Shown: piece after piece, positions 27,547 through 57,763 of the stretch | How the letters are laid out: the number at the start of each line of letters is the position of its first letter | Position numbering within the stretch: position 1 is the stretch's first letter | NCBI GenBank assembly: GCA_033807695.1 | Contig: CM066303.1 | Location: 3,844,001-3,908,000, forward strand | Length of the DNA stretch: 64,000 nt | Direction: 5' to 3' | Source: Daedaleopsis sinensis | Lineage: Eukaryota > Basidiomycota > Agaricomycetes > Polyporales > Polyporaceae | Program-made: the position numbers and the translations under genes | Notes under the pieces: model-generated | What the model was told of the DNA's origin: nothing | Seen by the model: the letters and a program-made list of their open reading frames with translations, nothing else | Database searches by the model: none

Positions 27547-27680
27547 ATCAGCAAAACCCACAACGGACTTGATTTGCATTTGGGTCTTATTTTTGTCTTA
27601 ATTCTCGCGTCTAAGTCGACTCAGGTACATAAGTAGATCTAAGTTGATCAATGCACCCTTCTCAAGACGGTATAAGCCGG
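27547..27680 (+). repeat. E2 left target AT, terminal repeat and subterminal motifs
   Basis: Target AT at 27547-27548, end sequence from 27549, then GTCTTATTTTTGTCTTAAT at 27584-27602 and AAGACGGTATAAG near 27664. Nearly the same pair, GTCTTATTTGTCTTAAT, occurs at 56026-56042 near the right end. Confidence 0.8.
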
Positions 27681-28138
27681 TAAGAACGGGTGCTAGCAAG
27701 AGGTTCTGGCATAACAAGTAGATAATTATTTGTAAGTAATTCAGTATAACTTTCACGTTCGGCGCAAGTCAAATCAAGGCTATGTGGACCATAAGGACCA
27801 AAAGCCGCCAGGCGGTCAAGAAAATCTCAGGCGATTCCATCGATCCAAGTAGCTGGCCCCACCAAGTAGCCATTGCTTCAAGCTGGTCAGGAGAAATCCA
27901 GACGCCAAGTCAAGGAGTCTACAACGAATGACACTTACAATGCAACATAAGATCGTTCAAAGCAGGGCTTCAAACTTCAAGCTTTCAAGTGCGGCCGCAG
28001 TGGGCAAAGGCAACTCGAGGCTAGAAATCAATGTGCTCTTCAACCTACCAAATTCTAGTCCCGGCAAGTTGACGGTCGATTCGGATGCAGTCAAGGAGAC
28101 AATAACGATGAGTAATCTGAGTCTAGCTTCACGGATAG

Positions 28139-28351
28139 GGATTGTGCGTTAGGCGCAATCTTCATCGCAGAGATGAAACAAGGAGATAGCTGATGTACCA
28201 TGAAGAGGCAGCTTCTGGTGATAAGACGACGAGGACGATAGCAGCGGGGTGTATGTCAGTCGTTGCAGAGCTTTCTATAGCAGCATGCATCTGGTTAATG
28301 AGACGGTGTCAACATGTAGACGGGAATTGTGTGTGAGGCGCAATATTCATC
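28139..28351 (+). repeat. Imperfect direct repeat inside E2
   Basis: A roughly 30-base unit (GGGATTGTG-GT-AGGCGCAAT-TTCATCGC) occurs at 28139-28168 and again at 28322-28351. The rest of 27.7-29.5 kb has no gene I can recognise, apart from short protein-like stretches such as minus-strand RLTVNIGDADRYVIVQELW near 28730. Confidence 0.55.
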
Positions 28352-29523
28352 GCGGGGACAAGAGGGGGGCAACTAGCGGGTGTGTGGTCGTCAGAGAGGT
28401 CTTCTTTGAGGATGCGTCTACGAGCGCCTGAAATTTCCAGCCCCCTCCTCTAGCAGACTCGGAGCGGGCCCTTGGTGATGACGACGCGCATGGGGATTGT
28501 TGTGACTCAGTCAACGGCTAGGACATGGTTGTCGGAGAAGCTTGAAGAGTACCGCATACCTAGTCAAGAAGATGTTGGTTAGACGATGTCAAGTTGTTGT
28601 AGTACCGGGTGGTCAGTATGGCAATCCACAGCATTGCATCGCAGAACGGTGTAGAGGTATATGCAGTTCCATAATTCTTGTACAATCACATATCTATCGG
28701 CGTCACCGATGTTGACCGTCAGCCTGAAACTTGTCAGCAAGGCACAGGGGGAAATATTGAGCACGTAAAGCTCACAGACTTGGACCGAGAGGAAGGCTGC
28801 GTTCGAGCGAATTCAAACGGGACTTACAGCTGGCACTTGGTATGCGTCGCCATCAATGTTGCGCCCCATGTAGGGGAATGAATGAGCGAACGAGAGCGAT
28901 TCACTGCTTGATGTAGTAGAGCTCTGAAGCGTTCACCCTGCTCCAGAAATGCGCCTATCACAAAGCAGGTCGAGCGTATCCTCTAACTGTACCTGAGACT
29001 AGAGACGCCGATGAGCTGGCAACGAATGGTCGAAGCCTTATTGTGTACGCACCTTAAACTCAGTTCTTTTGAGCTCCCCAGCTTTCCATCTACTGCCTCC
29101 AAGTCTGTGGAACCTACACCAGCTCCGAGCTCTGCTTGCCCACTGGCAGGGGCGCCGGTACTAGTACCAGCTACTGGTGCCATTAGTCGGGCACGTCTGA
29201 GTCTGAGAGGCTGCAGACGCTGCTCACCACTTCTAGTTCACGTTTCCGGGACCAGATAGACGAGCAAAGATGTTTGTGCCTCAGCGCAGAGTCTCCACGC
29301 GCCAGGTCTCACTGGTGGTGGTCGAGGGTGGAAGAGAAACGACATCGGCGTCAACATGATCTTCCCCGGAATTTCGTGTTCTTAAGACGCCGGCCTACTA
29401 CCTCCAGCGACTCGGAGTCGGGCTCGACATCATGATACCCAATCGTCGTATACAACATTCTGATGTGGTGAAGAATACAAGTGTATATAACTGGTGTCCA
29501 TTGTCCAATGTACAAAATTATAT

Positions 29524-32500
29524 CTAACGCTGTCCATCGGGTTGAGATGCGGGTACGGTGTGGAGAAGGTCGAACGCATGATGATCTATATACTTGTTGA
29601 CGAAGAAGCTCTTGAAGTGATCAAGGCTTCGAGAGCTCTGTAGGGTATGGGGAACAGGTCGGCCTACACTGACGCCGATGAGATGAGCAGCACGAACAAT
29701 GGTGTTGAGATGGATAACGGAAATGAGAGGAGTACGTCGCCGCGAACGGCCCAAAGCGACGAATGCCGGCTCCACGACCCACATGCCCGTGTCTTCATCT
29801 GGCTGATCATCGGTTCTCCAAAACCAATGCACCGCGGCGCAAGGATATACTACCCCCTGGTACTGGAAGGAAAAGAGTAGTTTCACCCGGGCAACGTCTA
29901 AACCAAGCAGACTGGGCGCGTGGTTCCACTTGTTGACAAGTACGCAATCGTACCTCGCGGCACCATTTCTCCACTTGGGAGTCGCCCGGATGAATTCGCG
30001 GTGCATTCCTCCAATACCGGAGGGATCACTGGGTGCATAGTAAGTCGCAGCTGCAGAATAACGTACGGAGATTGGTTCGTCTTGAAAGGGAGGACAATCG
30101 TTGAGAGAGAGGTCCGCTCCGGAGATGCCGCTGTTAGGATGTTGTTGATGGAAGAGGAAGCGTCGGATGTGGTTGCGTAGGTCAGGAACCGAGAGCTCCT
30201 GGTCCAGGCCGTCTGCCGTCTTTGAATGCTGGCGCTCTATAAATTGTATGAGTAGAATCATAATTGTAGCACAAATACGCGTACGTACGGGGAGTGACGG
30301 CCAGCGTGACATACGCAAGCACCGTTGGTCCTTCGACTTCACCATCACCTCCAATGCGGCCTCCCATGTGTGCATGTACGCGTGCCGAGCTTCCAGTAGC
30401 AGCTAGGACCGGCGCAACATCGCCGTCATCGTCTAAGAAAGGAGATGCCCAGGGCCAGTCAGATGCGGTTTGCAGAGAACGGCGTTGCGAACCATCGTAC
30501 CAACTCCAGTCTGCGCTGATGATAAGCATGTTCCTTCTAACATTCCTCGCTCAGCAAAGTCAACGCGCGCTGCTGCAAGCTTGTCCAGCCGCTGATTTGT
30601 AAGTAGCATTTGATCCAAGGCGTTATAGCGGTTGGAACGTCGCCAAGGCTCCTTCACAGCTTGGATATGCTTTGACTCCGTGATAGAAGAGCAGAGAGCG
30701 TTTGGAGCAGCAAAATCCCAGATGCGGTCCTCATAGTGTTCAAGCGAGTGTTGCCTAGGCAAAGAGAATCCTTCTGCACGAACGCCGCCGGTACGAAATA
30801 TTTCCCGGTAACGTCTGAACATGCGCAGCGATTCCCCCACTTGGTCGATGGTCTTCGCGTTGTGCGTGTCGCGCCTCACAAGATAGCAAAACTCAAGAAA
30901 GTAGCGGAAGGTTTTGACCACATCGGTCGGCAGCAGCCCATCAATCGCAGGCAGGTAAACCTATCGCCACAGATCAGATTCTGGAAGATACTCAAATGAG
31001 ATTATGCCGCACACCTTCATCAACGCCTTGGAGTCGTCCCCAGTCCATTGCTTGAAGCCTCGCCCCTCGTGGAAGTTTCTCAGCCTGGAAAAGGGGGGGG
31101 CGACGGCGATGCTAGATGATCATAAGCTATTGGTCGAATGATTTGCACCGCGCGGACAATCACACTTACCGACGATCTATCTCTGCCATCACCTCCACGG
31201 CTCGTGCGTCGGCGTATTCCCGCCGCAAGTATTGTTCGACCCAGAGAACAAGATGATCCTTGAACGTTCCTTTGACTAACTGATGCAAGATATCAGGAGA
31301 GAGCAGCTCATGGATGTCGGCGCGAGGGAAGTCGTTGGTGAAGGGCTATGCACCATACGATTGACAGTTGAGCGAACGATCCTGTGGAGATCAAATAGAA
31401 ATCTTGCCTACCACTACATCTCCTACGATGCCGTACTCATTCCATAAGGGACCTAACTCGAACAGCGCCGTCATACGATCCACCGCTTCTCTGGTTCGTC
31501 GCACAGCGGACTCATCCTCGTCGAGACGCTTGTTTGCTGCCGTACATCTAACAATGGGGTTTAGCCAAATACTCAGCCAACAAATTCATCCAGCGATACG
31601 CACATTGGACACCAGCCCTGAACGATGCTGGCGACCAACGCCTGCTCAGGATAATCTGCGATGTAGGGACCAATCCCGTAGAGGACTCGACGAAAGTAGC
31701 GGTCGCCGCAAAGCATTATTTCTGGCCTCGTCATCCCCGGGCGCAAACTGCTCAACACCCGAGAGAGAGAGGAGTGAAAGAGCTGGCGGCGAAACTTTCG
31801 GAACTCCGCGTTGTTTGCATGTTGTCTAGTAGCTATGTCGGAGGCGCATATCAATTAGCAACCCTGTCAACGTAAATGTTAAAGTTGGCCTGAACATACT
31901 CTTTGGGATGGCCAAGAATGCTATCACCGCGACGGCGTTTCGATGAGCCCGCCTGACGTTGTTGTGGACGTTGCCGATTGACATGTACAAGGGGTAATAA
32001 TCGTTCTGTCCTGTCGCCACGGAGACGGTGGTCTTATCGCTGCCCAAGATGATCGGTACAAAGGACGAATCCTTCGTGTCAGGAAGCTTCTGTATCTCGT
32101 CCTGAATAGCTGAGGTTAGTACGTCAAATGCTAGCACCAATCGGAAGACAATGACTCACAGCCTGTCTCCACGCCCAATCTCCGCCCATGAAATTTCGCA
32201 GTCGCCGATTGCGATTCTCAAAGTTGTCGAACTCCCGCAGAGGCGCAAAGTCGATCTCATCCTTGAAGTCAGGATTGGCCAGCATATTCTTGATGATCTC
32301 CCTGGGATCGCGGAAGTGAACGATGTGCCGGTCGGTCATCCAAGTGGGTACCTCGCCGTCGGGCTTCGGGCCGCCATAGGACAGATGGAAGCTCTGCCAT
32401 CGTACATCGCCCAGAGGTGTTCGGTCGATGGTTTCGTATAGATCGCTGTGGTCTTTGAAAGGAGGAGGAGCACCGTGAGGGACTAGAGATGCGGCCCACA

Positions 32501-33782
32501 TATCCAGGAGCAAGTCGATATTCCCGCCTGACATCTGCTCCTTCCGGTATAGTAGGTCTGCTAGTTCGAAAGAAACGCGATCCGCGTAAGGATGCCATTT
32601 CTCGGAGGCCGGAGGGGAAGGGTCCGGGAGAGCGCCGTCGGGCAGGGGGGCTCCGGTCTCATCACACGGTTTTCCTGATGTTGGACATTCAATATATGGA
32701 TAGCAAGCGCCAGTGAACGACTTGATTTGCGCTCACCTGTAAGCCACGGATGATATTCATAGATAACACCTGCGGTAGTCGGTGGAGTGTTGCTTCGACT
32801 GGGATTCGGAGAGGAAGGGGCCTCGCCGCTATGCTCGGATACCGGCGGCGAGTCGGAAGGCATAGACGCAACAGCAGGCGAAGCAGCCTGAGGGGTGTAA
32901 GGACCGACGTCAGGATACTCGTACATTGGTTCATAGTCATCGTCTTCATCCTCGTCTTCCCAGTAGTCCGATAGTTGCATCGGAGGGGGATACTCAGAGT
33001 CGGAGTCTGAGTCTGAATCCGAGCGGTTGGAAGGGTCGGCAGATTTGTTGCTGGGAGAAGAACTGGGGGGTGTTGGCCCGGGGGTCGATTCGCGTGAGAG
33101 GAAGTCCGGAGCCCTAGTACAATCCATGCTCTGAATTATGACGTAGCATCAAAATAGCTAACACATACCTCACGGGCTCGCCGGCAGCAATGCGCTCAGC
33201 TGCTGCAAGTCGTTGACGTGGTAGAGGCGTTCTGTGCGTGATTTCCAAGTCAGAGCCCTCGTGCAGATCTTCATCGTCTTCTCCCTCATCACCCTCGTCA
33301 CGGTGATCCTCGATGTCCCAACTTGCATGCTCCTCGTCCCCGTTGTACACATGGCCCTGGTCATCACCGTTGTTCTTGAAGCTGTCGGTGTCATCGTCTT
33401 CATCATCAGAGTCGCTGCCGTCGTCGTCAACTTCCTGGTCATCAGAGCCGCTGCCGTTGTCGTCGTCTTTCTGGTCATCAGAGCCGCTGCCGTCGTCATC
33501 GTCTTTCTGGTCAAAGTCGCTGCCGTCGTCTTCATCATCGGAGTCGGAGTCGGAGTCGGAGTCGTACGTAACGGGAAGCAGAGGAGGCATGTCGTCCTCA
33601 AGCCAGTCGGAATGACATTTGCGCATGTGCTGAGTGTAGCCCGTCCGATTCCGTAGGATGCGGAGGCATGAAGGCACAGGGCAGGGATAGTCGATTGGCA
33701 TCGGGCGTCGATAGTAGATGAGAGCGGGTTCTGGGATGTTGGGAGTTGGCGAGTTGTCGAGTATGCTACCAGTGTCTAGCAT
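29524..33782 (-). CDS. Plavaka transposase of E2
   Basis: Start ATG 33782. N-terminal C2H2 finger (CPVPSCLRIL ... HMRKCH), long Asp/Ser acidic repeat (SDSDSDD, DQKDDD), a second acidic exon, then KPCDETGAPLPDGALP, FELADLLYRKEQMSGGNID and WQSFHLSYGG. The catalytic part has PIILGSDKTTVSVATG, YYPLYMSIGNVHNNVRRAH, GPYIADYPEQALVASIVQGW, a CPxC knuckle across an intron, FKQWTGDDSKALMK, FSLPRQHSLEHYEDRIWDF and SSITESKHIQAVKEPW. The C-terminus has GGMHREFIRATPKW and TGMWVVEPAF. The introns checked are GT-AG in matching phase, including GAGCCC|GTGAGG near 33174, and no stop was found inside. It should move E2. It points to the left end, and its start faces the cargo. Confidence 0.87.
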
Positions 33783-36162: not shown

Positions 36163-38784
36163 TTATCGCCGGGCTTTGAAAGTACGTTGATACTTACATA
36201 GCAAGTGCTCTACCATGATAGGATCGTACAGTATGAAGTTACGGTCCTCTTCGCCTAGAGTCTGCAGAAGATAATAGTAAACACGTTTGAAAGCCTGGGT
36301 CACCTCTGCCTCTGAAGCATCCTCCGAAGCGACCTGATTTGAGCGTACCAGTCCTTTCAAGGAGCCCAGTCCGTTGAAATGAACCAACCGTCCCATCTCC
36401 TCTAAAGATGGGCATGCGACCTTGCCAGTGTATACCACATCGGCGGTGAGAAGATATCCGGTTAGCCCGCCAACCATCCTCAGCTTGGTCCCGATATGCG
36501 AAAATCGGCGTTTGCCCTTCGCATCGCGCTGAACTTCCACCTTGCCTTGAGTCCAGAGAAAGAACTCCTCGAATGGCACAGGCTTGCCCGCGTGCTTCTT
36601 GAGGAGTTGAATCCAGTCCGACTCGGCCTCAAAGTACTGCAAGGCGATGTTGTGTCCGTTGTTGCGCTCGTCCTGTGGAGATCCGTAGCAAGAGATATTG
36701 AAGAAGTGCTTGAGAGACTCCGGGGATGTAGAGTCGAAGCGCTCCGACTCCAGGAAGGATTTCCACGCGGCGACATCGCGGAAGTAGCAACGGGTACGCC
36801 GATGAAGGACGGGTGAGTTGTATAGGAGGGCTCGGAAGATGACCCAACTTGGGAAGGCCCCTGGGTGATCACAAAGGTCGCGGTGGAATGGTCCCCCCGA
36901 TGCCGTGACGCGCAGTCGGGAAGGGGCAAGCTCGCGGAACGGGAGGTAGAAATCGACGTCCTTGAGCACAAGCTTTTGAAGCGTTGTGGGAGAGGGAATA
37001 GAATGTCCACGCGCGATTGGTAGAAGATGATGCACGAACTCGCTGAGATCGCACAATCCAGCATCCTCCAGCGATGTTAAAGGGGGTGCAAGTACGACCA
37101 GCGGCGGTACATGAGCGGCGGGTTCGGAAGGGGAACACCCGACGTTGGTGGATTCGGAAGGGGAACGCGTTCCCTCTGCACTACGGATGCGCTGAACTGA
37201 TGCATCGGTCCACGCGCGAAGTCCTGGGAAGCATCGATCTACGACAGACGAATACTCGTGCATAATCTTCTCCTCCGAAGAGTTAGAAGAAGCCAGAGGC
37301 AAGCGAGCCAGGGCTAGAGCGAAGGGCTGCAGCATTGACACACGCGCATCCTTTGGTCGCTGTTTCTTGCCAAAAACCGACTTCGAAATTGAACGATATG
37401 CGTCCCAGATGCCGTCCAGCAAGAGCACATCCGAGTTTTTGAACGTTCCTACGAGGCATATGATGAAGTATGCAGACGCCATTGCGGTGTTATTTGGGAA
37501 GTTAAGCCACTGACGGACGATGGACAGGACATTGCGCGTGGTGACGTCAGGAATCTCGGAATCGAGGATACGGGGAAGGGGAAGGCAAGCGGTAGAAGAG
37601 CTGTCAAGTCCAGATAGATAGTCATCTGAGCGGTAGCTCCCTTCACGTCGATTGCGAACGTCGTCATAGACCGAGACGCATAGGCGTTCAAACCATCCAG
37701 CCTGCCTAGTAGCCGTTTGAGGAGCGGAACTTGATGAAACCTCGCCACCAAGCTCCTCGATCAACGTCCGGCATTTGTCAGCGCACACGTCACAAAGCCA
37801 ATACCACGCCGCCGCGCTGGAAAGCATGAGGCGACGTCGCTCGATAGCACGTCGAAGGGACCCAATGCCATCTGAGGTGTGCGATGTGCGATGAGCTGGC
37901 CACATCCGTAAGATGCACTGGGCGATGTCTGTGGAGATGTCGTCGGCCTGGAAAGCGCGGATAAAGTTGTCGACCGCCTCCCGCGCATTTCGCACTTCAG
38001 ACGGTTCGACGGGAAGTGTCCGTGCAATATTGCGCATAACGCTGAGTTGGGTCTGCAGGCGGTCGAGCGAGAACAGTTCCAGCACTTTCTGAAAGGCTAT
38101 AATTCGCGTGAGATCGACTGTGCTGGGAGTAATGAGTACAACGTACGTGGAGGGTCTGACAGAGTATCGTCCGGACTATCGCTGGTCCTAGCCTGCACAG
38201 ACGGTGACGATGCGCTGGGCTCCCGGAGAGGACTGAAGTCTGACGATGAGCTGGGCGGATGGACATCCCCTTCCGCTGCACTTGAGAATGGAGGTACCAT
38301 GGACAGGCCGTCCGAACGAGTGGGTGTGATTGCTGGCATCTGCCCAGCAACATCTGGGTCTAGAAGCTCTAGAAAGCCTGAGCGAGCTTGGTTCTCCTCT
38401 CCTAAGTGCGCATCAAGATCAGACCGTTGTCAGGAAGGTATTTCGGTTGACTGACCAGGATCCGTCGGACCTATTGATATCGCTGCACGCTCAACAGACG
38501 GAACCGAGGAGCATGAAGCTACGCCGTTCACATGGCCCTCCTCAACTCTGGAGTCATGGTCTTCCAGATCTTCATCGGCTTCGTATCCATCCTCCAATCC
38601 AGAGTCTTCGGAGTCTTCTGAAATTAGATTTAGATGTTCGTTCATTTGTTAAGCTGCAGCAGCACTCACCGCAATAGTCGGAACATAACGCATCCAGCAC
38701 GGACGTATAGACCGTCAAGTCAGCGTCTCCAAACCGGTCAGGTAGATCAAAGCCGCTATCTGCTAACGAGAAGTCCAAGTTCAT
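36163..38784 (-). CDS. Uncharacterised large protein of E2 cargo (family G5)
   Basis: Start ATG 38784 (MNLDFSLADSGFDLPDRFGD). Four exons with GT-AG joins: a short acidic exon, an EDSEDSGLEDGYEADEDL exon, a Ser/Pro exon (MPAITPTRSDGLSMVPPF region), then one long exon of more than 600 codons from about 38090 to 36163. The long exon is helical in character, with blocks FPSWVIFRALLYNS, LKHFFNISCYGSPQDERNNG, PFEEFFLWTQGKVEVQ, RMVGGLTGYLLTADVVYTGK, PSLEEMGRLVHFNGLGSLKG and MVEHLLCKYQRTF. I recall the GGLTGYLLxADxxYAG and MxEHxLCKY blocks in repeated hypothetical proteins of agaricomycetes, but no function. Its stop lies towards the transposase; the TET/JBP gene lies head-to-tail upstream. No damage seen. 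Confidence 0.75.
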
Positions 38785-38857
38785 CGGTGCTTCTTCAAGT
38801 TCATCTACTTAGATACCGGTATGTCAATCATGATGGGCGCAATTCGAAATAGTTATA

Positions 38858-41501: not shown

Positions 41502-42590
41502 CGTGACGGATGGGAACAAACGAGGCTGAAGAGGCCAATGACGACGTGTCGGAAGCTTCTTGCAGCTGAGTGAGGCTGCGGGAGTGGTGATGGTGAGGGG
41601 GAGGAAGTTGGATGGAAGTTTGGTGCGAGCAGGGGGTCAAGCAGTACGATATCGAGACCTAGCGGACGACCACCCAAAAGATGCCCTTTGCCCAGAGAAA
41701 TACCGATTAAGGCCGAACAAGACTGCACCGCGCTCACGCAGTGCAGTTCATCTCGGGCCAAGATCCGACGATGGGTGGAGGGCAATGCCGGATCACACAT
41801 CTGTAATCGATGGCCTTGCGATGACCACCCATGGAGATGAGACGTGAGCGGAAAGCACATGGAGACTGATGGAGTATCCGCTCACTTGTCTAATTCATCT
41901 CGATGAGCATATGACAATATGGATCAGCCCACCAAGCCGGAACCATTTTATCGACCGTTGCACTCGATACCCACCGCCCATACGGCGTGGCTCATGCACT
42001 CCTTCAGCGACCGACAAGATAAAGGGGCCCGTGGATGGTGCGCACAGCGTGACCAGGCGGTGAGTGCTGAGAAGTCATATGGTCAGCCCAGAATTGACGC
42101 GTATTCGTCCAGAGACCACATACCTGACCATGCAGCACATGCATGATCTCGTCCGCCTGATCATTAACCTCTTCAAGTCCTGGCTGGCGGTCTGACGTGG
42201 AGCTGGGACGGATTAGCAGGTACGTTTTGGATGGTCGATCCCTCGCTCTGACATGCCCAAACATAATGCTCTCACGCGCCCTCTAACTACGCTTACCGGA
42301 GGCCCTCCTCCTCCCTCGGGACCTGCGGACGAGGTCCAAAGCCGCGATGGAACAACATGCATTGATGACTTCTTACATCGACGGATTCAATCTACAATAT
42401 GAAGTGAGTACATACATTTACCTCTATCGTAGACGATCACTAGTCCTGTCATCGCTAGCAGTAGCGTATGCTCTAAACGTCCGATGGACGGTGAAGTAGG
42501 TGAGGGAGTACTCCATTAACGCCTCGCCTCGCTGAAACGAAGATAAGAGTCGTGGTGCGAGGAAGACAAATGCCGGGACGTACCACCCTT
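41502..42590. other. Unrecognised stretch of E2
   Basis: Only short overlapping frames; no family recognised. It could hold further decayed pieces of the VPS41-like segment to its right. Confidence 0.4.
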
Positions 42591-42904
42591 CACCCCTATG
42601 GTAGCAGCGAGTGTGCGGTCTTGGATGAAAACAGGGTGCACTCCGACTGACGCGCTTCGAAAGCTACTACTACAATTCAAGGGTCGAACACGTATGGACA
42701 GCGCGGGCGGATGGCAGCGCTTTGCTCGATCGTCGATTGAGTGTCACTGTATCAAGAAAGACATTAGCGAACAATGCAGGAACACTTCGAATGATAGCAC
42801 ATAGACAGACAGTTCTGCAAGACGCTCCATGAGGATGCTTGCGTCCTGGCCGGTGGACTTCATCGACGAAGAAGACGGAGCACAGTCCATTTGCGACTAG
42901 AGCG

Positions 42905-44851: not shown

Positions 44852-45051
44852 TCCAGTTCAGACTCTAGACATGTGCAGCGAGCGGGGAAAGCGTAGGGGA
44901 GACGTGAGGAAGGATGACGGGCGAAGCCAAGGACCGAAGCAGACGAGCGCCTAGATTCTTCCACTTGACCACTTCCTCGTTGTATACGCTCTCTACCAGA
45001 TCTCTCCCCACCGACCTCTGCATCGAGCTCGGACGGCATGCCAACATCCTC

Positions 45052-45360
45052 TAGGAACCGTCAACGAGGCTGCGTACAGCAAGCTGGTCCGGAAGTATCC
45101 TGCGCTGTTTGGCGTGCCGTTCGTGCTGCCGCTAATTGTCTGCGTATCGTATGGCAGTTCACGCGGACTCGGTACGACTTGCACGCGCAGGTCACTGCGG
45201 TACGCACGGTCATCTACCTCATGGCGCTTGGGACTGACTGACCACCCAGGTTGTGTGGGTCTCGGTGGTCGGGGTGGTAGTTGAACGTTGAACAAGGAGC
45301 AAGAGCTTAGCTTCGCACAGAACAGAAAGAAGTTCGACATTCGAGAGGAGTATTTCGTGA
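45052..45360 (+). pseudogene. COX16: COX16-like gene piece
   Basis: COX16 is a small mitochondrial inner-membrane assembly factor of cytochrome oxidase. The plus strand gives NEAAYSKLVRKYPALFGVPF, then FTRTRYDLHAQ, a GT-AG intron, and KEQELSFAQNRKKFDIREEY, the characteristic COX16 series. The segment between the first two blocks is out of frame and no clear downstream exon (PRPxGxPEW block) was found. It lies between the VPS41-like and SEC10-like pieces and on the opposite strand to both, as expected for independently captured fragments. Confidence 0.7.
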
Positions 45361-45959
45361 GTCCTGATTTGTCCTCATAATACCATGCCATCCCGTTTTG
45401 AACCATGCTGCTAGTACGCATGGTGCGCCATGGCAGAACCTCCGCTCCGCCGTGGAAAGACGCCGACCCCCGTAACGTTGAATGTTGAACGCGGGACTGC
45501 GCAGGCTACACCGTCAAGAAGTTCGGGCTGCCGAGACCAGGCTGGGGATTATCCTCGGCGTGGGCGGGTCGCAGCGGGTGATGCAGCTTCTGGGCATCGT
45601 GAAGGTGAAGGACCTGATTTTCATCGCGCTCGGAATGCGATTGAGTTCTGTGCGTGTTTAGGTCCTCGCCGCCATGTGCTGCTCGTGTGGGCCGCTGAAG
45701 CAGCACACACCGCGCTGCGTTGCAGGTGTCGTCGACTACGTCTTAAGCCCGGAGAGCTCCGCGTATGATGGCAGGGTGCTGCTGCTGGTGCAGGAGATAT
45801 GTATGTTCGAACGATGAGCTCGAGGGGGAGTAAAGTTGTCGGTAGCAACCAGTCTATTCACACATATACACGCGAGCAAGTACACATGCAACGGAAGCAC
45901 ACAATGCATAACTTGTGCTGAACGCGCATTCACAAACGACGAGGGGAGTTTGCCCACAA

Positions 45960-46330
45960 TGTTGCTCATGCGAGGCATCGGGTATACAGGGCATACTGAT
46001 CTGCTCCCGGAAGGGCTCCAGGTCCTTCATGATCATGCTCACCCTGCCCATGCCGAAGCAGTCACAGGGGCCCTGACCGTCCACGACGGCACCATCGGTA
46101 GGATCGTTGAAGTGGCCTAGCCACAATTGGAGCGCTGCTCGAAGTACGGCCAGAGGAGGTTCGCGTCTATGCGGCCAAGGTAGCCCTCGGCGATGTACGA
46201 CTTGACGATGTCGGGGTTGACGAGAAAGACACTGCCGAGTTTGCGGATGAACTCGAACGTCGGATTGAGAACGTGTCGATGACGTCCTGATACGATTTGA
46301 GGTCCTTCGCGAGCATGATGCATGAGGCCC
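45960..46330 (-). pseudogene. SEC10: SEC10 (exocyst) C-terminal gene piece
   Basis: The minus strand carries IMLAKDLKSYQDVIDTFS, then in another frame FEFIRKLGSVFLVNPDIVKS, YIAEGYLGRIDANLLWPYFE and QRSNCG, followed by FNDPTDGAV and FGMGRVSMIMKDLEPF. This is the C-terminal end of the exocyst subunit Sec10 (EXOC5) as I remember it. At least one frameshift separates the first two blocks. The rest of the gene is absent. The family match rests on motif recall. Confidence 0.7.
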
Positions 46331-46939
46331 CACCGCGGCGCTGACTGGGGGCTGCTCGTGATCTCAGTAGTCGATTTGTTCATACCCTTCGGATTGCTCC
46401 CGCGGCAGATTGAACTTGTCCTGCTTGTAGCTATTATCACAGGACTGGTCCATGTCACTCTAGGAAGCACATGTACTCACAAGATACCCGTACACGTCCT
46501 AATCTCTTTCCTCTCAAACACAGCCTTGTCAGTCGCTAATCCAACATTAGCGACCAAACCCAAGTCGAGTGTCTCGCAACAAACGTCAGCATCAAGGACT
46601 GCAGTACCCTATGCATATGCATGATTTCAATAGCTACGGTTGGGATACGCTGGTAACTGATACGCACCAGTAGGCTTCGTACAATAGCCGCCATAGATCC
46701 TTTGTCCGACTCCGCGTTCTCTTTAGCCTTGACTGCCTGAGCTACGGCGGCTGTGTCAACACGCCATGGTCAGTTACATTGCCCGCGTTCTTCGCGTCTG
46801 CCAGTATGTCCTCGAGTTCGCAGTCGACAGCGTTCGGACTCTTCTCCGGGTGTTCGAGCAGTAGACTTGGGGCCGCGATGCTGTCAGTGCGCATGCGAGA
46901 TATGTGAGGAACGACGAGTGGACTCGCGGGACCGCACAG

Positions 46940-48500
46940 AATTAGTAGTCGCTTTGCTCAACTTCTGCGCGGCGTTCAAGAGAACATCGCCCAGCCGGAT
47001 ATTGTTATTGAGCGACGGTCGGTTTGCCTCTACAACCCGATGCACCTTGTCGATCGTACAGTGCAACCGTCCAGAACCGATGCTCACGAGACTGGTGCTC
47101 CCGACGACCCCGGCCCCGCGCCCGACCCCGACCCCGACCGCCCCCCAGCTCCCGGACGGCGACGGGCTGCCCACGACCCTGCTCCCACTTGCGCTTGCGC
47201 TGCTCTTTCCATCTGTGCCCGCGGGCGACCCGCCCTGGAGCACGATCGGCTTCGCGCCCGCCCCGTGCGGCGACGCCGAGCGCGACCCCCACTTGTCCGC
47301 GGCGGGGCTTCCGCTGCCCACAGGGGGCGAGCGTGTCGCGAGTTGGGGCAAGCCAAGCCCCCCAGCGAGCCCTGCGGGGCGCGGGTGTGGGGGGAGCATC
47401 GTCGGCAGCTGCGGGCTCTGCGGCGGGCACGACGCGCGGTCCTCTGCGGGCTGGTGCATGTCTGGGGAGTGCGACGTCGGCTGCTGGCAGAATGGGATTG
47501 GGCTCAGGCGCGCGGGCTGCGGGGTCGGGCGGCCGTTCGAGGGCGGGGACACGCGCTGCTGTAGCTGGGACTGGGGCTGGTTCATGCTGCCCGCGCGTGT
47601 GCGCTTCGCGTCCGAGTGCTGCTGCTCGTCGGGGCCCAGGCTCAGCGGCCGCTTGTTGCTGGGGGGCGACGGGCGCAAGGAGACAGACGGGTTTGCGCGC
47701 CGGTAGGTCGCGCTGGTCGCGAGGCCGATGAGCGCGTCCGCGACGCCCTGCTCAAGGGCAGCTATACTGTTTGTAACTTGAATAAAGCGACGGTCGCATA
47801 TAGAAGGTGGAAACGTACCGAGGGCAACGAATAACTTATCGCGTTAAACGCGAGGTTCTTCATGAGGTCGGCCAGAGTAGGTAGGTCGGGCAAGACCTGG
47901 ATGATTTCTGGCACGCTGTTCTGCTACCGAACCAGTATCAGCTTTGCGGGATGCGGTAGAATCTTGGACGAATTCCATACCTTCTTCTCCAAGTCTGGTC
48001 TATTGAGTGTGAGGACATAGGCAACGATTGTTGCGGCGAAGAAGTCGTTGTACGAGATGAGTGCGGGGTTGGTCGCGGTGGATGTTCAAAGGACATCCAG
48101 GAGCTCGCCGGCGCGCTTGCATCGTCGAATGAAGACTACTAGAAGGGCGGGTTCTCCGATCCTAGTCTCCGCAGCCTGCACGCATATGGTTAAACACTCA
48201 CAGAGAACACCGCTTCAAGTCAACGTACTCTTCCGCCTGCTGCAGATACTGCGTGATCATCTCATGGTTGCCGAAGAAGAGCTCTATCCTGATGAGTATG
48301 AGGACGGCGTCGATCCTGGAGCTGTCTTCACCAGTGCAAGCTTCAGAATGTTCTAAACCTCCGATGCTGTCGTCCTTGGTACCCTCGAGAAGAATCCTGG
48401 GCGCATTCCAATTGTGAATGTGCCAGCGTGGAATAGAGGGCGAGGAGTGGATGAAGTAGTCCTGCGCGACACCTATTAGGTTTAGGATTGGGAGTCTCAC
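46940..48500 (-). pseudogene. RPN7: RPN7-like proteasome gene pieces with a foreign insert
   Basis: RPN7 (PSMD6) is a lid subunit of the 26S proteasome. From 48500 on the minus strand: LNLIGVAQDYF, SSRIDAVLILIRIELFFGNH, EMITQYLQQAEEYVD, then CKRAGELLDVL, NPALISYNDFFAATIVAYVL and LNRPDLEKK, then SVPEIIQVLPDLPTLADLMK (about 47900). After a gap the family resumes at 47090-46950 with SGRLHCTIDKVHRVVEANRP and GDVLLNAAQKLSK. Between the two parts, about 47095-47730, lies a GC-rich open segment encoding a Ser/Pro/Gly-rich sequence (RPSPPSNKRPLSLGPDEQQH) that is no part of RPN7. So this is a truncated, rearranged and probably chimeric copy. Confidence 0.75.
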
Positions 48501-49764
48501 GTCTTCGTCTATGGCGATGTAGGGTGCTTTCTTGTGGCTAGTTTTCTTGTTGCTAGTGGCACGAGCTAGACGTCAGGGATAGTGAGTAGAGTAGGAAAAC
48601 AAGGACGATGAGAGGCCTGTGGAGCGTTCAATGCCACCAGGCGCCTACAAGCGACACGAAGGCTTCCCACGCTCCTCGGACAGTCACCGATGCCTCAGGC
48701 TCCGAGTCTTGTCCTCCTCCATTTACCATCTTACATTACCCCGTCTGCACCAACTGTGACTCCCTCTCACTCTCGCCGATCTCACCAACGCTGCACCGAC
48801 GATTGACGCGCAATCCGATTCGGACCCCAAGAGCGCAGAGGCTCTTCACAAGGCGATCCTAGTCGGTGAACTCGAAGTCCAGTTGGGTGTATAGCTCATC
48901 GCGCGAATGCTGCGTCGCTGATCAGTTAGCATGCAGCCTTCGAGGAGAAGGAGAAGCTGTGATTTCACGAAAGTGCACTGGTGAAAGCTTAGGGAGCGGT
49001 ACCGGGACTGCAAGTTCGTCCTTACATCTTGCGCGCACTCCGTCTTGGTACGTTGTCGCCCCTTGCCTTGGAATGACCGAGTAAGTCCGAATGTGCTTGC
49101 ACCGTGCGGGCGCGGTGCAGGCGTGTTCGGACTTTGGTCCGATGACACGGTAGCTTATTAGCTCCGGTTACTTATCGAGGATAGAGCGAATAGTTGACGA
49201 CCTGCTTATCGCAAAGTATCACTGCCGCAATCGATCGCTTACAACCGCTTTCTACAGGCTCCTCCCGGTATACGGGATCTTGTTCCCCCTTTACCCGCCC
49301 GAGACCTTCATCTTCCTCCTCCTCCTCCAGGTTAGATGGGGGCTGATGGGGGGCCCGAAGTCTCAACTATCTGCCGGCGAGCCCACATTTGTGCATGTCT
49401 TCAAACGATGCCTGCCGTACTCATTCTCATCTTTATCTTAGCATATACTATAGCTACGTAATGTAAGGCCGTACCGTTCCCCAAATAAATGGTGTGGGCG
49501 TGTGTCGTTTGCGCGTTCTCACCCCTGCGTAAGATTCATGAAATCTGTGACTGCGGAAGGTGTTCTCAATGCAGGCTGGAGGGCCAGCCGTATACGACGA
49601 TTTCCTGACACGCGGAGTCGCGGGATAACATTCAAGAAATTGATCTCATATGGCGCAAGGTAGAGGATGATACAACGATGCGGTAGTCTACCCCACGACT
49701 AGGCGCGTTTTTGGTATTACTCGAGTATGTGGAAAAATTGAGCACTTTCAAGACGTCCTTTCTC
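48501..49764. other. Unrecognised stretch of E2
   Basis: No gene recognised. A short minus frame near 48850-48900 (RDELYTQLDFEFTD) reads like protein but is isolated. A GGAGGAGGAGGAAGA purine run lies at 49309-49330 on the minus strand. Confidence 0.4.
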
Positions 49765-51444
49765 CTATAGATTGACTCCGAGTTGCAAGTGCATCGGCGC
49801 CCAGTCGCGGATGGAAATATGAGTGATGCGAGACCCTATTTAGTGAACGTCAGCGAGTCGAACCCTCGGGATAACCAACCTCAAACGCACGCATAATAAA
49901 CGGCTGGTACACATATGTCATTGCGGTATCTTCGCTAGATTGATGCGGATTTGTACTTGTTAGTGAGAAGGCGTGTTTGGATACATGGATAATACTCACG
50001 TTAGGAGGTCTATAACGTCGACGTAGTGCGTCAACGAAGGAAATGCCGCCTTCAAGACCCGCGCAACCGTGATGGTGGCGTCGCCCTCCGCGGTCCAGTT
50101 GATCAAGTGGGTGCGAATTTCCTGCAGCGGGTGAGGAGAAGTTGGTGCTTCGATGCGAAGGCGGTTGATGGGTCCGGAGATGTGCCAGGAGGGGATGGTG
50201 ATGGAAAGTAGCTTCGGACAAGCTTTCGCAATGTATTCAAGGGTTGCGAGCTGCGGTGGGACAAAGTCTGGGCCGGCGCCTCCATGTACGGTCTCAAAAC
50301 CGATCCCCAACACTCGGACGTTGGGCCAAGCTTTAGCCATCCGACGTAGTTGTTGATCGGAAAGTCGGAATGGATGATGATGAAAATTGACCATGATATG
50401 TTCAAGCAGATGCAATTCGAGTAGAGGTTGGACGACGTGTATGAATTGGTGATTAAACTGGGGGAGACTCGTTTGGGCCAAGGATTGGAAGTCGACCTTG
50501 CGGAGTGCGGCGGTCACGAAGGACGGACAGATCAACATCATGCAGTCCAACAACGCTATGGAACCTCTCCAGGAGGCAAGCTGCAGTTTCTCTAGCCCAG
50601 GTAACAGTACTGTGATTTCATCTTAGGCAGTAGTAACCGCATTAGAATGGATTTAGACGAGCTCAGTTATAGACTTCACCTTCGTTCGGTAGCACATCAT
50701 CTACGTTTGGTATAATGCCAAGGTGAGGACGATTCCCGACGTCTGCAACCGCCTCGACGCCCAGATACTTGAGGTTCCGAGAATGCAGGGAGGCATACTT
50801 GCCGATGCGAATCACCCGCCTTACGAAATCTTGAGCAAGGACGTTGTCGGTACCAAAGTCATAGGCGATTACGTAGACGTAAATGGTCGCCGGAGACATG
50901 AGGTGGAGAAGGTCGCAGGTGGGGATATGATGTTCAGTCCATTGGATGTGTCGCATGCGAGGGAAGAGGTGATCGTGGGGCATCCTAGGGTAGGCCGTCC
51001 GGAAAAGAGAGTCGATGAACTCAAAGGTCCCAGGGACAACCAAAGTAGGCGACACCGAGATGGAGCGGACGTGACTGGCGTACCACAAGAATTTGCGAAG
51101 TTCGTGGCCATGCATGATCTGCTCGTGCTGCAATTTCATAGTCCTGAGAAGCACTGGTGAGTTGGGTATGGCTTTAGTGACTAGGCCATCACGTACGCCA
51201 GGTAGCCGCTCTCCAATTCCATCGGTTCCCTCCGCTCGTACCACTCCGGCATAAGCAAGCTCAACAACGCTGATACATCGTGCTCGCTAAGTTGTCGCCA
51301 CACGAGGGGAGCTAGATGCTCGAACAAGTCCTTGCAGATTCGGAGATGCTTGGTGATCTGTTGTCGAGCCAAGGTCGAAGGATACACCCCAAAGACCATC
51401 TCCCATATCTCTGTTGCAAGTCCTTCAATTTGAAAGATCTTCAT
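49765..51444 (-). CDS. F-box-like protein with leucine-rich C-terminal part, E2 cargo
   Basis: Start ATG 51444 is preferred because the F-box-like block follows at once: IEGLATEIWEMVFGVYPSTL, RICKDLFEHLAPLVWRQLSE. Later blocks have the Leu/Ile spacing of agaricomycete F-box/LRR-type proteins: MRHIQWTEHHIPTCDLLHLM, NLKYLGVEAVADVG, LLPGLEKLQLASWRGSIALL, LSDQQLRRMAKAWPNVRVLG and ACPKLLSITIPSW. Introns near 51187-51127, 50697-50621 and 50003-49940 are GT-AG and in phase; the last exon and stop (49765-49767) are uncertain. F-box proteins bring substrates to SCF ubiquitin ligases. These proteins are very common in such genomes, so capture by E2 is plausible. No damage noticed. Confidence 0.6.
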
Positions 51445-51974
51445 GAAAGGGCTCAAGGCCCTCGGCGAATGTTCGGCAGACCGGGTCGGTGGCAGTGGCG
51501 TAGTTCGGTGGCCGTAATATGTCAAGAAGGTATAAGCATAGCTGCGGGGACGCATAGGACCGGCACATTCCATCTAGAAGGAATATTAGCACTCCGTGAA
51601 TCCAAGCCAAGGGCTAGAGCTGGATCAATACCTTGTTTTCGATCGGAAGGGATAAAGAGCTCAAAAGCAGGTGAGATACTGGGCAGAACGCTAGGTAACT
51701 ACGATTGAGGGAGTGTTGAAAATTGCAAGGTGGGAATATCGACCAACTTGGTCAGGCCTACGTCAGCTCTTGGGTAGCCAGGGTGATGAAGGAAGTTGCC
51801 ATTGGACCGTTGATAGCGCCCATATATAACTTAACCACGGGCGGTTCGGTCTTGAACCTTTCGAACCACTTCGTGCCAGCTCACCTCAAAAATCGACGCT
51901 TCCCGCTCCGTTCACTTCTCCACCCATCGCGATCTCTTTATTCACTTCTTCACGCATCGCGACATACCACGACC

Positions 51975-54819
51975 ATGCATACCCGTCCTGAGAATGCCGA
52001 CAAACGTTTGGGCGCACCCGACAAACCGGCCCCTCGACGTACTTCCTCTCAGGTCAGACGCGACGCGGCCGCAAAACGTGCTGAGCAGCGTGCTCAGATT
52101 GCCGAGGACGAGCAAAACACCATCGACATAGCCACCATGGAGGAACAGATTCAAGACGAGACCAACACCCGACGCGTCACTCGACAAACTCGCGCTTCAA
52201 GTTCGACTTCTTCCAACCGAGACCCATCGTCCGGGAACACTGCTGCTAAACGCCGTACGGCGTCTAACAACGGTCGCCCCTCCAAAGCCGCACTCACTCC
52301 GACCCCCACCGCTCCCACCTCCAAGGCCGTCGCTCCACGCCCAGTTAAGCACACCCGTAGCGGTACCTCTAAGACCACCAAGGACGCCGTCGACGAAGAG
52401 CTCTCCGACGCCCCCTCCTCTCCCACCAATTTCGAACCACCTACCTCTCAGCCCGGCAACCGCCTGGATTCGCCGGAGTCCCTCTCTGACCTGAGTGAGA
52501 TCGAAGAGACGCCCCGGCCTTCCAAAAAGAAGGCCAAGCTGACTGCGACCGGCAGCATTCGTAGTGCCGTCAACAACGCCCGCCAATCCTTGAACTCAAC
52601 CAAAGAGAATTCGACTTAGTAAGCAGTGGCTTCTTTACATGTGAGCTGTATCAGTACTCACACATCTGCTACGTACTCTTCCAGCCAAGTTTCTTCTCTC
52701 ACATCCCTTGCCGAGATGGCTCCGCGCACGCACGATGTTCCGGTAACGCCCTTCGCTGCCCCGAAGCATCCGCTTGCTAGGAAGAAGATGCGGAAACCGG
52801 AGGACGACACTACCGATGACGCCCAGACTCAGGCTGCGGCCATGCTGCTTGGTAACGTGCCTCAGATCAAGATCGAACGTGTTCAAGATGGTGATGGCAA
52901 GCCGGGTAAGAGGGACGACAAGAAGGACGACTCCAGCAAGAACGCAGCTGACAAGAAAGCCGCCAAGAAGGCCGCCGCCGCCGAGAAGGCTGCTGCCGCC
53001 GCCGCCGCCGCCGAGAAGGCTGCCGCCCTCGCTGAGAAGGCTGCCGCCCTCGCTGAGAAGGCTGCCGCCAAGAAGGCTGCTGCCGCCAAGAAGGCCGACG
53101 ACAAGAAGGCCGCCGCCGACAAGAAGGCCGCCGCCGACAAGAAAGCCGCCGCCGACAAGAAAGCCGCCGCCGACAAGAAGGCCGCCGACAAGAAGAAGAA
53201 GGCCGCCGACAAGAAGGCTGCCGACGACAAGATCGACCAAAAGGGCAAAGGGAAGGCCCCAGCTGACGACAACGAGGACCACATGGACGTGGATGTCGAC
53301 GACGTCCATAACGATGTCGACGCCATACTTGCAGATGATGCTGACCGCGCGTCAGACTACTCTGGCCAAGGGTACGTGGACAGCGACGATGAAGAGGAGG
53401 AGGAACGGGCAGCCAACAACAGCCCCGTGAAGACGCACAAGGTGCGCCTCACGAGCGATGTAAGCATTTCTATTTCTTGTTACCATCGCTCGCCTACACT
53501 CTCCCTCTCCCCATAGGCCCTCATCAAGGTCGAAGATGACGAGAGCCGCTCCGTCCCAAAGAAGTCATCCAAGACCTCGAAGGGTAACCACCTTACTGCT
53601 GGATCCGCCGACAACGAGGTATGTACTCTATCAACTCTGCCAACAGTCGCACCCTCGCTTCTAGGTCATCGACGTCGACAGCGCAGATGATGCTGCCCCT
53701 ACCAACTCGAAGAGCACCAAGCCCTCCAGCCGGGTCACATACAAGAACGCCGACCTTCCTGAAGGTGCCCACTACAACAACACCTGGAAAGGTGTTCTTC
53801 TCCCGACGCTGTTCAAGTTCATGGGAACCAGAGACAACCCCTGGTCGATCTCCGACCGGGAGTTCTTGTCAGTCTTGCAAAGGATCTGGGACGCTGCGTA
53901 TCCTAAGAAGTTCCAGCGCAAGATCGAACTGGGCGACAGCGTTCACGGTTTGGTACGTTTACTCTCAGCGTCTCTATCCCTCGATTTCCCGTTGACTACT
54001 TACGGATTAATATACCTTACAGGCTTCTCAGCGCGTCTATGAGTGGCGAAACACGTTCGGGACTACCGCCCTTCGCGCATGTGAACATTTCTTCAAGACC
54101 TACAAGGCCGGGACCGCGTATCCCGACTTGAGTACGCGGAAGATCTTCGGCCAGGCATCTCTGATCAATGCGGAGATTTTGTACAAGTTCCCGGGAGTAA
54201 AGAAACACAAGGTAAGCCGTTCGTCTTCGAGTTAACGCCGCTGCAATGTCGCTTACCTTGACATAGGGTCTTTACCGCTCGGAGTTCGTCATCGCCTGTC
54301 TCAATGTCCACCTCGATACTATCGAACGCGCTATCAACATTCCCGACTTGTACCAGCAACCCCTGGATGCATATCCCTACGGCGCAGTAGGCCTTGCGGC
54401 CGCCGCTGTAGGTACTGATTTGATGATCACGTTCAAATGCTTATGATCTACATCTACAGACCCTCCGCGCTGCAATGTTGTATGGATCTGGCAAGATTGC
54501 GTACAACCAACCTGGCGACAAGATCGTCATCCTCAAACCCCAGAATCCGCACACCGGCAAGGAAAGCAAGGAGTCGGACTTCAGCATCGCTAACTCCGGT
54601 GAGACCACCGTAGGGGCCGCTAAGCGTTGTCGCGCTCTTTCATGGGATAAGCTGCAGACCATCTACAAGGAAGCGGCAGGCTACAGGACGTCGGCATGTC
54701 CTTTGGCTGGCGCTATACGCGACCGTATCGCCATTGATATCGACTTCGCCAGCCTCCCGGACGACGACGACGACGACGAGGAGGAAGAGGAGGAGGAGGA
54801 GGAGGAGGAGGAGGAGTGA
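51975..54819 (+). CDS. F1-family protein of E2 (uncharacterised, spliced)
   Basis: Start ATG 51975 (MHTRPENADKRLG). Exon 1 (51975-52618) encodes a charged helix and a Ser/Thr/Pro-rich basic region. It joins exon 2 (from 52685) in phase, showing that what could look like two genes is one. Exon 2 has Lys-Lys-Ala-Ala repeats (52960-53230) and an acidic stretch. Later exons encode YKNADLPEGAHYNNTWKGVL, FMGTRDNPWSISDREFLSVL, YEWRNTFGTTALRACEHFFK, YRSEFVIACLNVHLDTIERA, YPYGAVGLAAAA and a poly-acidic tail of GAC/GAG codons ending at TGA 54819. All joins checked are GT-AG and open. Homologue of the E1 gene at 867-3795 and likewise next to an element end. Unknown function; proposed to assist transposition. 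Confidence 0.8.
52960..53230 (+). repeat. AAGAAGGCCGCC-type coding repeat
   Basis: Repeated units of GCCGCCGAGAAGGCT and GCCGCCGACAAGAAG encode Ala/Lys/Asp/Glu repeats, predicted to form a long charged helix. The E1 F1 gene has a similar but less regular stretch. Confidence 0.8.
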
Positions 54820-55660
54820 TTGTTGGTAAGTAGTATCGCTTGACCGTTCCATTAGCGTGTTGATGTACTTAAATGCTGCTACTAGTACTACCCAGCTTCA
54901 GCACGTCTAGAGGAGCGCAGAGCTATGCATGTCCCGCTTCTGACCGCGTTGTCGCCCGGTCCCGCATCTACTCTTGGACTAGATGTCGTCCGTGTTTGCT
55001 CTCTTGTTACCATATGTTCGACCGCCCCGAGTCTTGCACCTGCTCTTGATCTAGTGGACGCTGTCCCTATTTGCTTAATGGACTACTTTGAAGCACATAT
55101 TCCTTCGAGTCATTACGCGCATTACATTGAATTACATCGTACTTACTTTACTTGCTCACCTGACGTCCGCGACATCTTGGCTTCAAGTTGCATTGCCGGG
55201 CCTTATACCCCATCATGTCTCGATAGCCTGATCGACTTACAGATTCTTGTACTACCCTTCTACCTGCTCAGCTGAAATTCCTTGCATTGCTGGATTCTCC
55301 TTTAATGGCCTAATCGTCTTACAGGCCGATCATGTACTACTATTGTTTTTCTTGAACTTACTTGAACATCTGATTCCGATTGACTTCTTGAGCGTCTGGA
55401 TGTCCATTGGAATGAACATTATGATGCGTTCAAGATGCCTGCTCATGCATGAACTACTTTGTGTGATTGAACGGTCTGACTTGTCTGGATGTACTTAGAG
55501 CTCTTGAAGCTTGAATTCGACTGCTGACTTTAAAGTGGCAGTCGTAATTGACCGCTCCAACGCTCTGAGCCAACTGAAATTCTTACAGGCCTTGAAAGCT
55601 TGACGTCTTATGTTCTCTTCTCCAAAACATCTTATATCTACTTCTATATCTTAACTGTAC
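54820..55660. other. AT-richer 3' region of F1
   Basis: No gene recognised. Repeated short phrases such as CTTGAA, GATTGACTTCTTG and CGACTTACAG-like strings occur. This is the inner part of the E2 right end. Confidence 0.4.
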
Positions 55661-55674
55661 TTGTTTGCGGCTTC

Positions 55675-56207
55675 ACTTGTACACCAAGTTGCCTTAATCT
55701 GTACACCAAGTTGGCTCCATTATCTGCTTGTACTCCTTGGCTCTACTTTTGCGCCTTTGCATGTACACCTTAGCTCTACTTGTCTGCCTTAATTGGTACA
55801 CCAAGTCGGCTCCATTATCAGTTCACTTCAGCTTGTATGCCTTGTCTCTACTTTTTTGCCTTAACTAGATGCATCATGTACGCCTCAAGGACCAAATTTG
55901 ATACCATGATGTGCAAAATGAACCAGTAGTGCCAGGCACGCAATACTACTTATAAGTGTATGGCGACCGGTCACAACTTGGTATGTCCCTTGAGACGTCA
56001 CAAACCTCTTAGAATTGTCTTAGATGTCTTATTTGTCTTAATGCATGTAAACACTCTGAACGATAGCGCCTCAAGTATAAGACGGTTAAGTGTATAAGTG
56101 GACATTAAGGTAGATTAAGAAGGAGGACTGCATTGAACGCATGATTCCGACTTAATCGTCTTATACAAGATGATAAGGAGATATAAGTACGCAGTGAAAT
56201 TGCTGAT
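55675..56207. repeat. E2 right subterminal repeats, inverted end and target AT
   Basis: TGTACACCAAG-type units recur at about 55679, 55701, 55762 and 55796, two of them followed by TTGGCTCCATTATC or TCGGCTCCATTATC. GTCTTA/TAAGAC motifs follow (56018-56042, 56082, 56158). The element ends ...GTGAAATTGCTG at 56205, complementary to the left-end pattern, and AT at 56206-56207 is the target duplication. Confidence 0.75.
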
Positions 56208-57540: not shown

Positions 57541-57763
57541 CGCAGCGCCGGGACCTGTAGTGGTGACTGGTCGCCCAGGGTGAGGTACTCACCGTCTCTC
57601 CCGCCGATGTGCACTCTATATACTCATGATGTGGCGCACTGCGGTTCTGCATCAGGCTTCGCGTGGCTCGCATCGCGCTTTCCTCCGAACAGAGCAGGGA
57701 AGTGTGTGCTGGAGCGCGTGGGCTCTGCTGATCATCGATCAACCCCGTAGAGCTATATAGCGG

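Follow-up and report, generated by a model that had tools for sequence, protein, structure and literature searches.

How a gene for a membrane protein came to be divided into two parts lying 28.7 kb apart was the question raised by a window of 64,000 nucleotides from Daedaleopsis sinensis, a mushroom-forming fungus of the Polyporales (assembly GCA_033807695.1, contig CM066303.1, positions 3,844,001 to 3,908,000 of the forward strand). The window, meaning this whole stretch, corresponds to C4:3844001-3908000 in the one assembly examined here (51.6 Mb, 24 contigs), and positions are those of the window unless preceded by a contig name. The intervening DNA (27546-56208) is very probably, with a probability that we put at about 0.92, a complete Plavaka-group transposon that is autonomous and has been active recently, related to CACTA/EnSpm elements and of the B type as judged from its ends, its target-site duplication (TSD) and its transposase domain. 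Its length, its ends and the duplication were directly observed, as were a full-length open transposase, the empty sites and three copies that are nearly identical.

Ends of the element and the intron that it broke

Self-BLAST of the window detected a tandem family of membrane-protein genes in three copies on the minus strand, with 24328-24622 pairing with 27168-27453 and 24710-26039 with 56209-57546, and with the third copy at 60009-62056. In copy 2, 28.7 kb of DNA interrupt an intron, the 5' part of the gene being located at 56211-58174 and its 3' part at 27168-27543 (self-BLAST and intron alignment), which bore out the initial annotation of the window in that two parts of one gene stand 28.7 kb apart and are broken inside an intron. 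The intron is unbroken in copy 1 (24319-26642; 48 bp) and in copy 3 (55 bp), and measures 49 bp in a fourth relative, copy 4, at C4:4063769-4064571. When the two flanks were joined and one TA was removed, a 49-bp intron running from GTGAGC to CAG was restored, and the restored junction aligned without any gap with paralogues 1 and 4. The joined intron had earlier been given as 55 bases, equal to that of copy 3; it is actually 49 bp long, and the 55 bp of copy 3 is a coincidence. A stretch of approximately 60 bases near the broken gene, at 26900-26960, was found to recur at eight other places in the genome.

The full extent of the element was 27546-56208 (28,663 bp), as determined from the ends common to all three full copies in the genome (on C4, which is the copy in the window, and on C8 and C9), from the paralogue intron and from empty sites on contig C13. 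The termini are formed by a terminal inverted repeat, the left one being CATCAGCAA (9 bp; 27546-27554, plus orientation) and the right one, at 56200-56208 in minus orientation, reading TTGCTGATG on the plus strand. The arrangement CATCAGCAA...TTGCTGATG was present in all three full copies, whereas the flanks outside it differed, except for a left GTTA common to the C4 and C9 copies. Comparison with the other copies and the paralogues identified the TA at 27544-27545 and the TA at 56209-56210 as the left and right TSD, and the corresponding duplications were TA in the C9 copy and TC in the C8 copy. PlavakaB families are described in the accessible part of Kojima (2025; PMC12730594) as having the termini 5'-CATCA..TGATG-3' and a TSD of 2 or 3 bp, and both the termini and the duplications of the three full copies agreed with this description.

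Inverted ends and a short duplication at the breaks, which had been described initially, were indeed present, but the duplication was TA in this copy and not AT, and the ends proposed at that time, 27549 and 56205, fell 3 bp short on each side of the true ends. The AT duplication with these shorter ends was rejected, as it leaves six extra bases in comparison with paralogues 1 and 4. It was also ruled out by the empty sites on C13, according to which the CAT/ATG bases are part of the element.

Genomic copies, empty sites and transposase

The three full copies measured 28,663 bp (C4), 28,583 bp (C8) and 41,784 bp (C9, including later insertions), and the middle of the element was complete in each of them. 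The left end was detected at approximately 100% identity at four places, namely on C4, C9 and C8 and at a contig end on C13, and the right end was detected on C4, C9 and C8, the C8 match being 92% owing to a 70-bp deletion. The divergence was 0.22% between the C4 and C9 copies, and 0.12% between the C4 and C8 copies when one patch was left out. In this patch of the C8 copy, 47423-47638 (216 bp; C8:3386350-3386650), approximately 10% of the sites differed, against approximately 99.9% identity to C4 elsewhere. Two blocks of the patch were 91-92% identical to the host gene at C1:985602-985947. As they were not identical to it, this gene was rejected as the direct source, and gene conversion from a source outside the sequences compared is possible.

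Contig C13 (28,784 bp) consists of a tandem host unit of 9,782 bp, the units being approximately 99.99% identical, and the same host unit is also present beside the C8 copy, at C8:3374001-3377905 and 3406489-3410000. A sequence of 98 bp was predicted for the C8 site as it would have been prior to the insertion, and this sequence was found exactly at C13:8212 and at C13:17994, so that the 2-bp duplication and the ends of the element were fixed independently of the intron comparison. The third unit on C13 runs into the beginning of the element, 959 bp of which are present before the contig ends. As these 959 bp are all that C13 holds of the element, C13 was rejected as a further full copy; it was also rejected as ribosomal DNA, since its first 10 kb gave no Rfam match. 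A sedolisin-like peptidase gene was apparent by eye in the 9,782-bp unit. The initial annotation had proposed searching for other copies with both ends and for an empty site, and within this one genome both were found, as two further full copies and as the two exact C8 empty sites on C13.

The identity of the ends in the further copies, together with the two exact empty sites, excluded a chance origin of the arrangement. Segmental duplication or an assembly error that put 28.7 kb of foreign sequence into the gene was also considered. The assembly does have difficult places, such as the tandem array of the 9,782-bp unit on C13 and the array units adjoining the C8 copy. However, the three copies lie in different flanks with ends identical to the base and with a 2-bp duplication each, and exact empty sites exist, which made either event highly improbable.

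Gene A (29524-33782, minus strand) encodes a Plavaka transposase of 1,220 amino acids; in the gene model, 11 exons are separated by introns of 52-68 bp. Its spliced product matched positions 1-325 of the 325 positions of PF18759 (E 3.9e-131), the transposase domain expected of PlavakaB. This gene and three others of the element (genes B, C and E) had open frames and correct splice sites in each of the three copies when the nested insertions of the C9 copy were left out. A search with gene A detected 1,887 relatives at E<=0.001, and among the best 120 of these 1,887 that were listed, the closest were 70-74% identical and came from Polyporales. The nearest named protein relatives of genes A, B and C were from Polyporales such as Daedaleopsis, Earliella, Lentinus, Cerioporus and Trametes. 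The full-length match to PF18759, together with the PlavakaB-like ends and TSD, agreed with the first description of the locus as a Plavaka-type, cargo-carrying element of about 28.7 kb delimited by the broken intron. The DDE transposase of the element itself would recognise the short CATCAGCAA/TTGCTGATG ends, excise the whole 28.7 kb and insert it elsewhere, generating a duplication of 2 bp (TA or TC). We infer this cut-and-paste movement by its own transposase from the family to which the element belongs.

Several points weigh against a reading as an autonomous and recently active transposon. Movement was deduced and not directly observed, and the evidence comes from one genome. The C9 copy has a 503-bp insertion sited in a transposase intron, which may disturb the transposase of that copy. 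Furthermore, the substitutions among the three copies showed no excess of silent changes. The copies on C4, C8 and C9 differed by 102 substitutions in total, 31 of which lay in the patch or in the repeat of gene E and were set aside; of the remaining 71, 31 fell in coding sequence (10,698 bases) and 40 in the other 17,965 bases. Present-day selection on the genes of the element is therefore unsupported over so short a time.

A second, different Plavaka transposase is present in the window at 4385-5572 (plus strand; PF18759 matches at C4:3848385-3849572), and part of this area is related, in inverse orientation, to 31005-32039 of the element.

Captured host gene segments

The cargo, all of which lies on the right-hand side of the transposase gene, comprised genes B, C and E with open frames and approximately 6 kb of host gene pieces. 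The region 42682-50954 formed a chain of such pieces, whose counterparts on C2, C6 and C1 were 70-87% identical, and all but the last lay within 42682-49027 (approximately 6 kb). This comparison was based on BLASTN rows; TBLASTX rows overlapped in several frames and were not used. A broken VPS41 segment with introns occupied 42682-45457 (80-82% identical to C2:4567417-4570389), a broken SEC10 segment occupied 45475-46321 with a further piece at 46841-46925, and a broken RPN7 segment extended over 46952-49027 (46952-47082 and 47748-49027), all three on the minus strand. The host genes were assigned by Pfam, with E values of 4e-96 for VPS41, 4.4e-73 for SEC10 and 1.4e-57 for RPN7. Another piece (46350-46827), 87% identical to C6:1268577-1269053 and from a gene not identified, was captured within the SEC10 segment, and a piece at 47075-47681, 73% identical to C1:985602-986267 and containing the 216-bp patch of the C8 copy, within the RPN7 segment. 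The last piece of the chain (49841-50954; 82% identical to C1:1333049-1334134) falls in an LRR/F-box-like gene model at 49765-51573 (minus strand), which was recognised by eye and had no Pfam support. Gene E (51786-54815, plus strand; last exon uncertain) encodes a Lys/Ala-rich protein without family assignment. Its Lys/Ala-coding tandem repeat at 52959-53232 varied in length between the copies, that of C9 being short by 87 bp.

Decay was tested for three of the captured segments, VPS41, SEC10 and RPN7. The frame-breaking gaps in exons numbered 21 in VPS41, 8 in RPN7 and 5 in SEC10, counts that depend on the host gene models. The mismatches at codon positions 1, 2 and 3 amounted to 17, 17 and 23% in VPS41, with identities of 81% in exons and 85% in introns, and to 19, 18 and 23% in RPN7, with identities of 80% and 79%, respectively. 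The alignments of VPS41 and RPN7 continued through the introns, indicating that these segments were captured as DNA, and the broken pieces were common to the three copies, indicating that the breaking predated the spread of the element. The result for SEC10 was less clear and tells in part against neutral decay. Its mismatches were 17, 8 and 24%, and the contrast between position 2 (11/138) and position 3 (33/137) fits neutral decay less well; moreover, of the five gaps that break its frame, two are long deletions adjoining an intron. A likely route of capture would be faulty repair after excision, as proposed for gene-capturing transposons of plants.

The same interior bears on whether the 28.7 kb is one gene-capturing unit or a pile-up, that is, a smaller Plavaka element enlarged by nested insertions of other elements. 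Nesting does occur, as the C9 copy contains, in addition to the 503-bp insertion, a 12,697-bp long terminal repeat (LTR) element (C9:416970-429661), whose two terminal repeats of 907 bp are identical and which is accompanied by a duplication of 5 bp. This LTR element sits within the C9 copy and is therefore younger than that copy. The captured pieces from C6:1268k and C1:985k, furthermore, sit within other captured pieces. Nevertheless, the whole cargo was common to all three copies, the interior pieces tested were host gene segments with introns, and CATCAGCAA was not found again inside the element, although interior duplications were not systematically searched for. We thus regard a pile-up as unlikely.

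The limited identity of the captured VPS41 to the host gene could instead point to horizontal transfer of the element from another fungus, in which the cargo had been captured, and the Daedaleopsis nitida relatives of gene C (P0001) and gene A (P0024; 74% identical) are each listed on a contig of 2,936,821 bp. Neutral decay within the element, however, explains the same divergence, and no donor sequence was seen, so that such a transfer appeared improbable.

Genes C and B and the relation to known elements

The transposon at 27546-56208, read as a single gene-capturing unit, also carries two adjacent genes that might act on DNA bases. Gene C (38863-41257, minus strand; outermost exons uncertain) encodes a dioxygenase-like protein with an HxD...H arrangement, TET/JBP-like by motif only. 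It holds GGKHLDRHD and, further on, HGG, which by eye resemble the metal site of 2-oxoglutarate dioxygenases. Six relatives of gene C were found, the best being a D. nitida protein with 86% identity. H230 and D232 were invariant in all six, and the distal His was assigned by eye, its segment being absent in two of them. The HxE hallmark of the PE type was absent, as gene C and all six relatives have HxD. Tet_JBP (PF12851) gave no match with gene C or any of the six relatives, and the Pfam matches of these relatives were four weak and unrelated ones, in one relative each, with a best E value of 0.008. The Protein Data Bank sequence searches with the relatives of genes C and B returned nothing relevant.

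Gene B (36163-38645, minus strand; the first exons of the model were read on to the stop at 36163) encodes a 792-amino-acid protein of a family related to PF18723 (HMUDK_hel). The name of this family derives from the hypermodification of thymine in phages, and phage 5-hydroxymethyldeoxyuridine kinases carry a P-loop kinase domain. Of the 13 relatives of gene B, ten were scanned for PF18723: P0014 reached 24.4 bits against a cut-off of 25, P0010 gave an E value of 0.053, and eight gave none. No kinase family was detected in the Pfam scans of gene B or of these ten relatives, and in PHROGs one of 12 relatives had one weak match (E 0.024). Throughout the genome, PF18723 matched a separate locus on C5 over its full length and five further places weakly, the score exceeding the cut-off at two of the five. 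Each of these five places follows a gene C-like locus, 2.6-2.9 kb downstream of it and on the same strand. These placements and scores indicated that gene B belongs to a diverged relative of the HMUDK_hel family. The locus on C5 (C5:2051834-2052760) matched HMUDK_hel in full length in two pieces of 231 and 113 bits, and no gene C-like locus was listed on C5.

Further arrangements of the two genes were recognised by eye. Three proteins of Earliella scabrosa fuse C-like and B-like parts, and at two other loci of the D. sinensis genome gene C is directly followed by the start of gene B. Judged from sequence, the pairing of genes C and B is repeated elsewhere in this genome. There are 28 gene C-like loci in the genome including the three element copies (matches grouped by eye), and the equal scores of the matches at C8:3854282, C10:232911 and C12:2571957 suggest recent copying.

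The distances of these loci from transposases were compared with random placing, for which the lengths of C1, C3 and C7 were estimates and the loci were grouped by eye. At least three of the 28 gene C-like loci lay within 20 kb of a listed Plavaka place (random mean 1.29; 14% of the random sets as high), and without the three element copies at least one of 25 did so (random mean 1.06). These counts did not support gene C-like genes as a general companion of Plavaka in this genome. None of the 28 was within 10 kb of a KDZ transposase among those listed, and no gene C-like locus was found within 10 kb of any of the 22 PF12851 loci over the cut-off, three weaker PF12851 places not being used. At least 21 of these 22 Tet_JBP loci, by contrast, had a listed KDZ transposase no more than 10 kb away (random mean 1.2). 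Nearness to Plavaka and KDZ may be undercounted, because only the listed places of both were used. As for what moves the pair of genes C and B at the other loci, neither a listed KDZ (0/28 within 10 kb) nor Plavaka generally adjoins them.

With regard to function, the reading that we favour is that gene C would oxidise a base methyl group in DNA and gene B would act on the product, and that the element would thereby escape methylation-based silencing; we offer this as a tentative proposal, which is rather doubtful at present. A more elaborate form of it, in which the two genes would constitute a hypermodification module, C oxidising a methylpyrimidine and B building on it so as to shield the transposon DNA from silencing, and would spread separately as a mobile cassette distinct from the TET genes of KDZ, is unlikely. 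Some results speak against any such role. Gene C matched no Pfam family at E<=1, gene B of the window itself likewise had no Pfam match at E<=1, and two structure predictions of gene C relatives, relevant to the double-stranded beta-helix fold of TET/JBP enzymes, were poor, with a mean pLDDT (predicted local distance difference test) of 37 and 40. Given the absence of Pfam matches and the poor structure models, TET/JBP is a resemblance of gene C and not a proven membership. The transposon may also move with C and B as mere passengers that have no role in transposition or in escape from silencing, and we give this only slightly less than an even chance. The gene C-like loci elsewhere are tied neither to Plavaka nor to listed KDZ elements, and the element also carries broken passengers. 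On the other hand, none of the three copies shows a broken frame in C or B, while the captured host genes tested are broken, and the 86% identity of gene C to the D. nitida protein makes a longer-term constraint likely.

KDZ elements with TET/JBP genes are similar to the present element in being DNA transposons of basidiomycetes associated with a base-modifying dioxygenase, which in the present element is a putative one, but their transposase belongs to another family, and the gene C-like loci are near neither listed KDZ nor Tet_JBP. Starships are likewise large cargo-carrying fungal elements. They move by a tyrosine recombinase, and no such recombinase (Starship captain) was detected in the frames and gene models scanned, a subset of the frames of the element. 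Plant Pack-TYPE/CACTA elements (PMC8903248, PMC13317346) and Helitrons (PMC6431247), as far as the accessible text of these papers goes, also contain host gene fragments inside a DNA transposon; the copy described here differs in having its own full-length transposase, and its capture took place in a fungal Plavaka. PlavakaB families resemble the present element in having a PF18759-type transposase, CATCA..TGATG termini and a 2-bp TSD, and some of them carry a dioxygenase gene. The PE-type dioxygenases listed in the accessible part of that report (PMC12730594) have HxE, whereas gene C has HxD and no Tet_JBP match, and the same part makes no mention of gene B or of captured VPS41, SEC10 and RPN7.

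As to size, the accessible text of the respective reports gives approximately 7.2 kb for CNEST of Cryptococcus and approximately 11 kb for KDZ1 (PMC12810828), and calls red-alga En/Spm elements of 16-20 kb significantly enlarged (PMC6431247). The initial annotation had suggested a new size class, which is doubtful because Plavaka-flanked repeats of Amoebidium reach up to 50 kb according to the accessible part of a 2024 paper (PMC11244446). These giant repeats resemble the present element in having a Plavaka transposase at a very large repeat, and differ from it in being tandem clusters of intron-poor genes with many tyrosine recombinases, whereas intron-rich genes, host pieces and precise ends were found here. 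In the accessible main text of the literature on Plavaka, Kyakuja, giant basidiomycete transposons, gene capture and base modification, no fungal Plavaka with such captured host genes was described. What is new here is the demonstrated unit with its empty site, the capture of host genes by a fungal Plavaka, and the C-B gene pair.

The locus thus offers, in a mushroom-forming fungus, a giant transposon of the cut-and-paste kind whose limits are exactly known, and the mobility of this element is directly testable because empty sites exist in the same genome. It indicates that Plavaka elements can gather pieces of host genes, like the gene-capturing transposons of plants. In addition, two genes with a possible function in DNA base modification are here linked to a Plavaka, which bears on how transposons escape from methylation.

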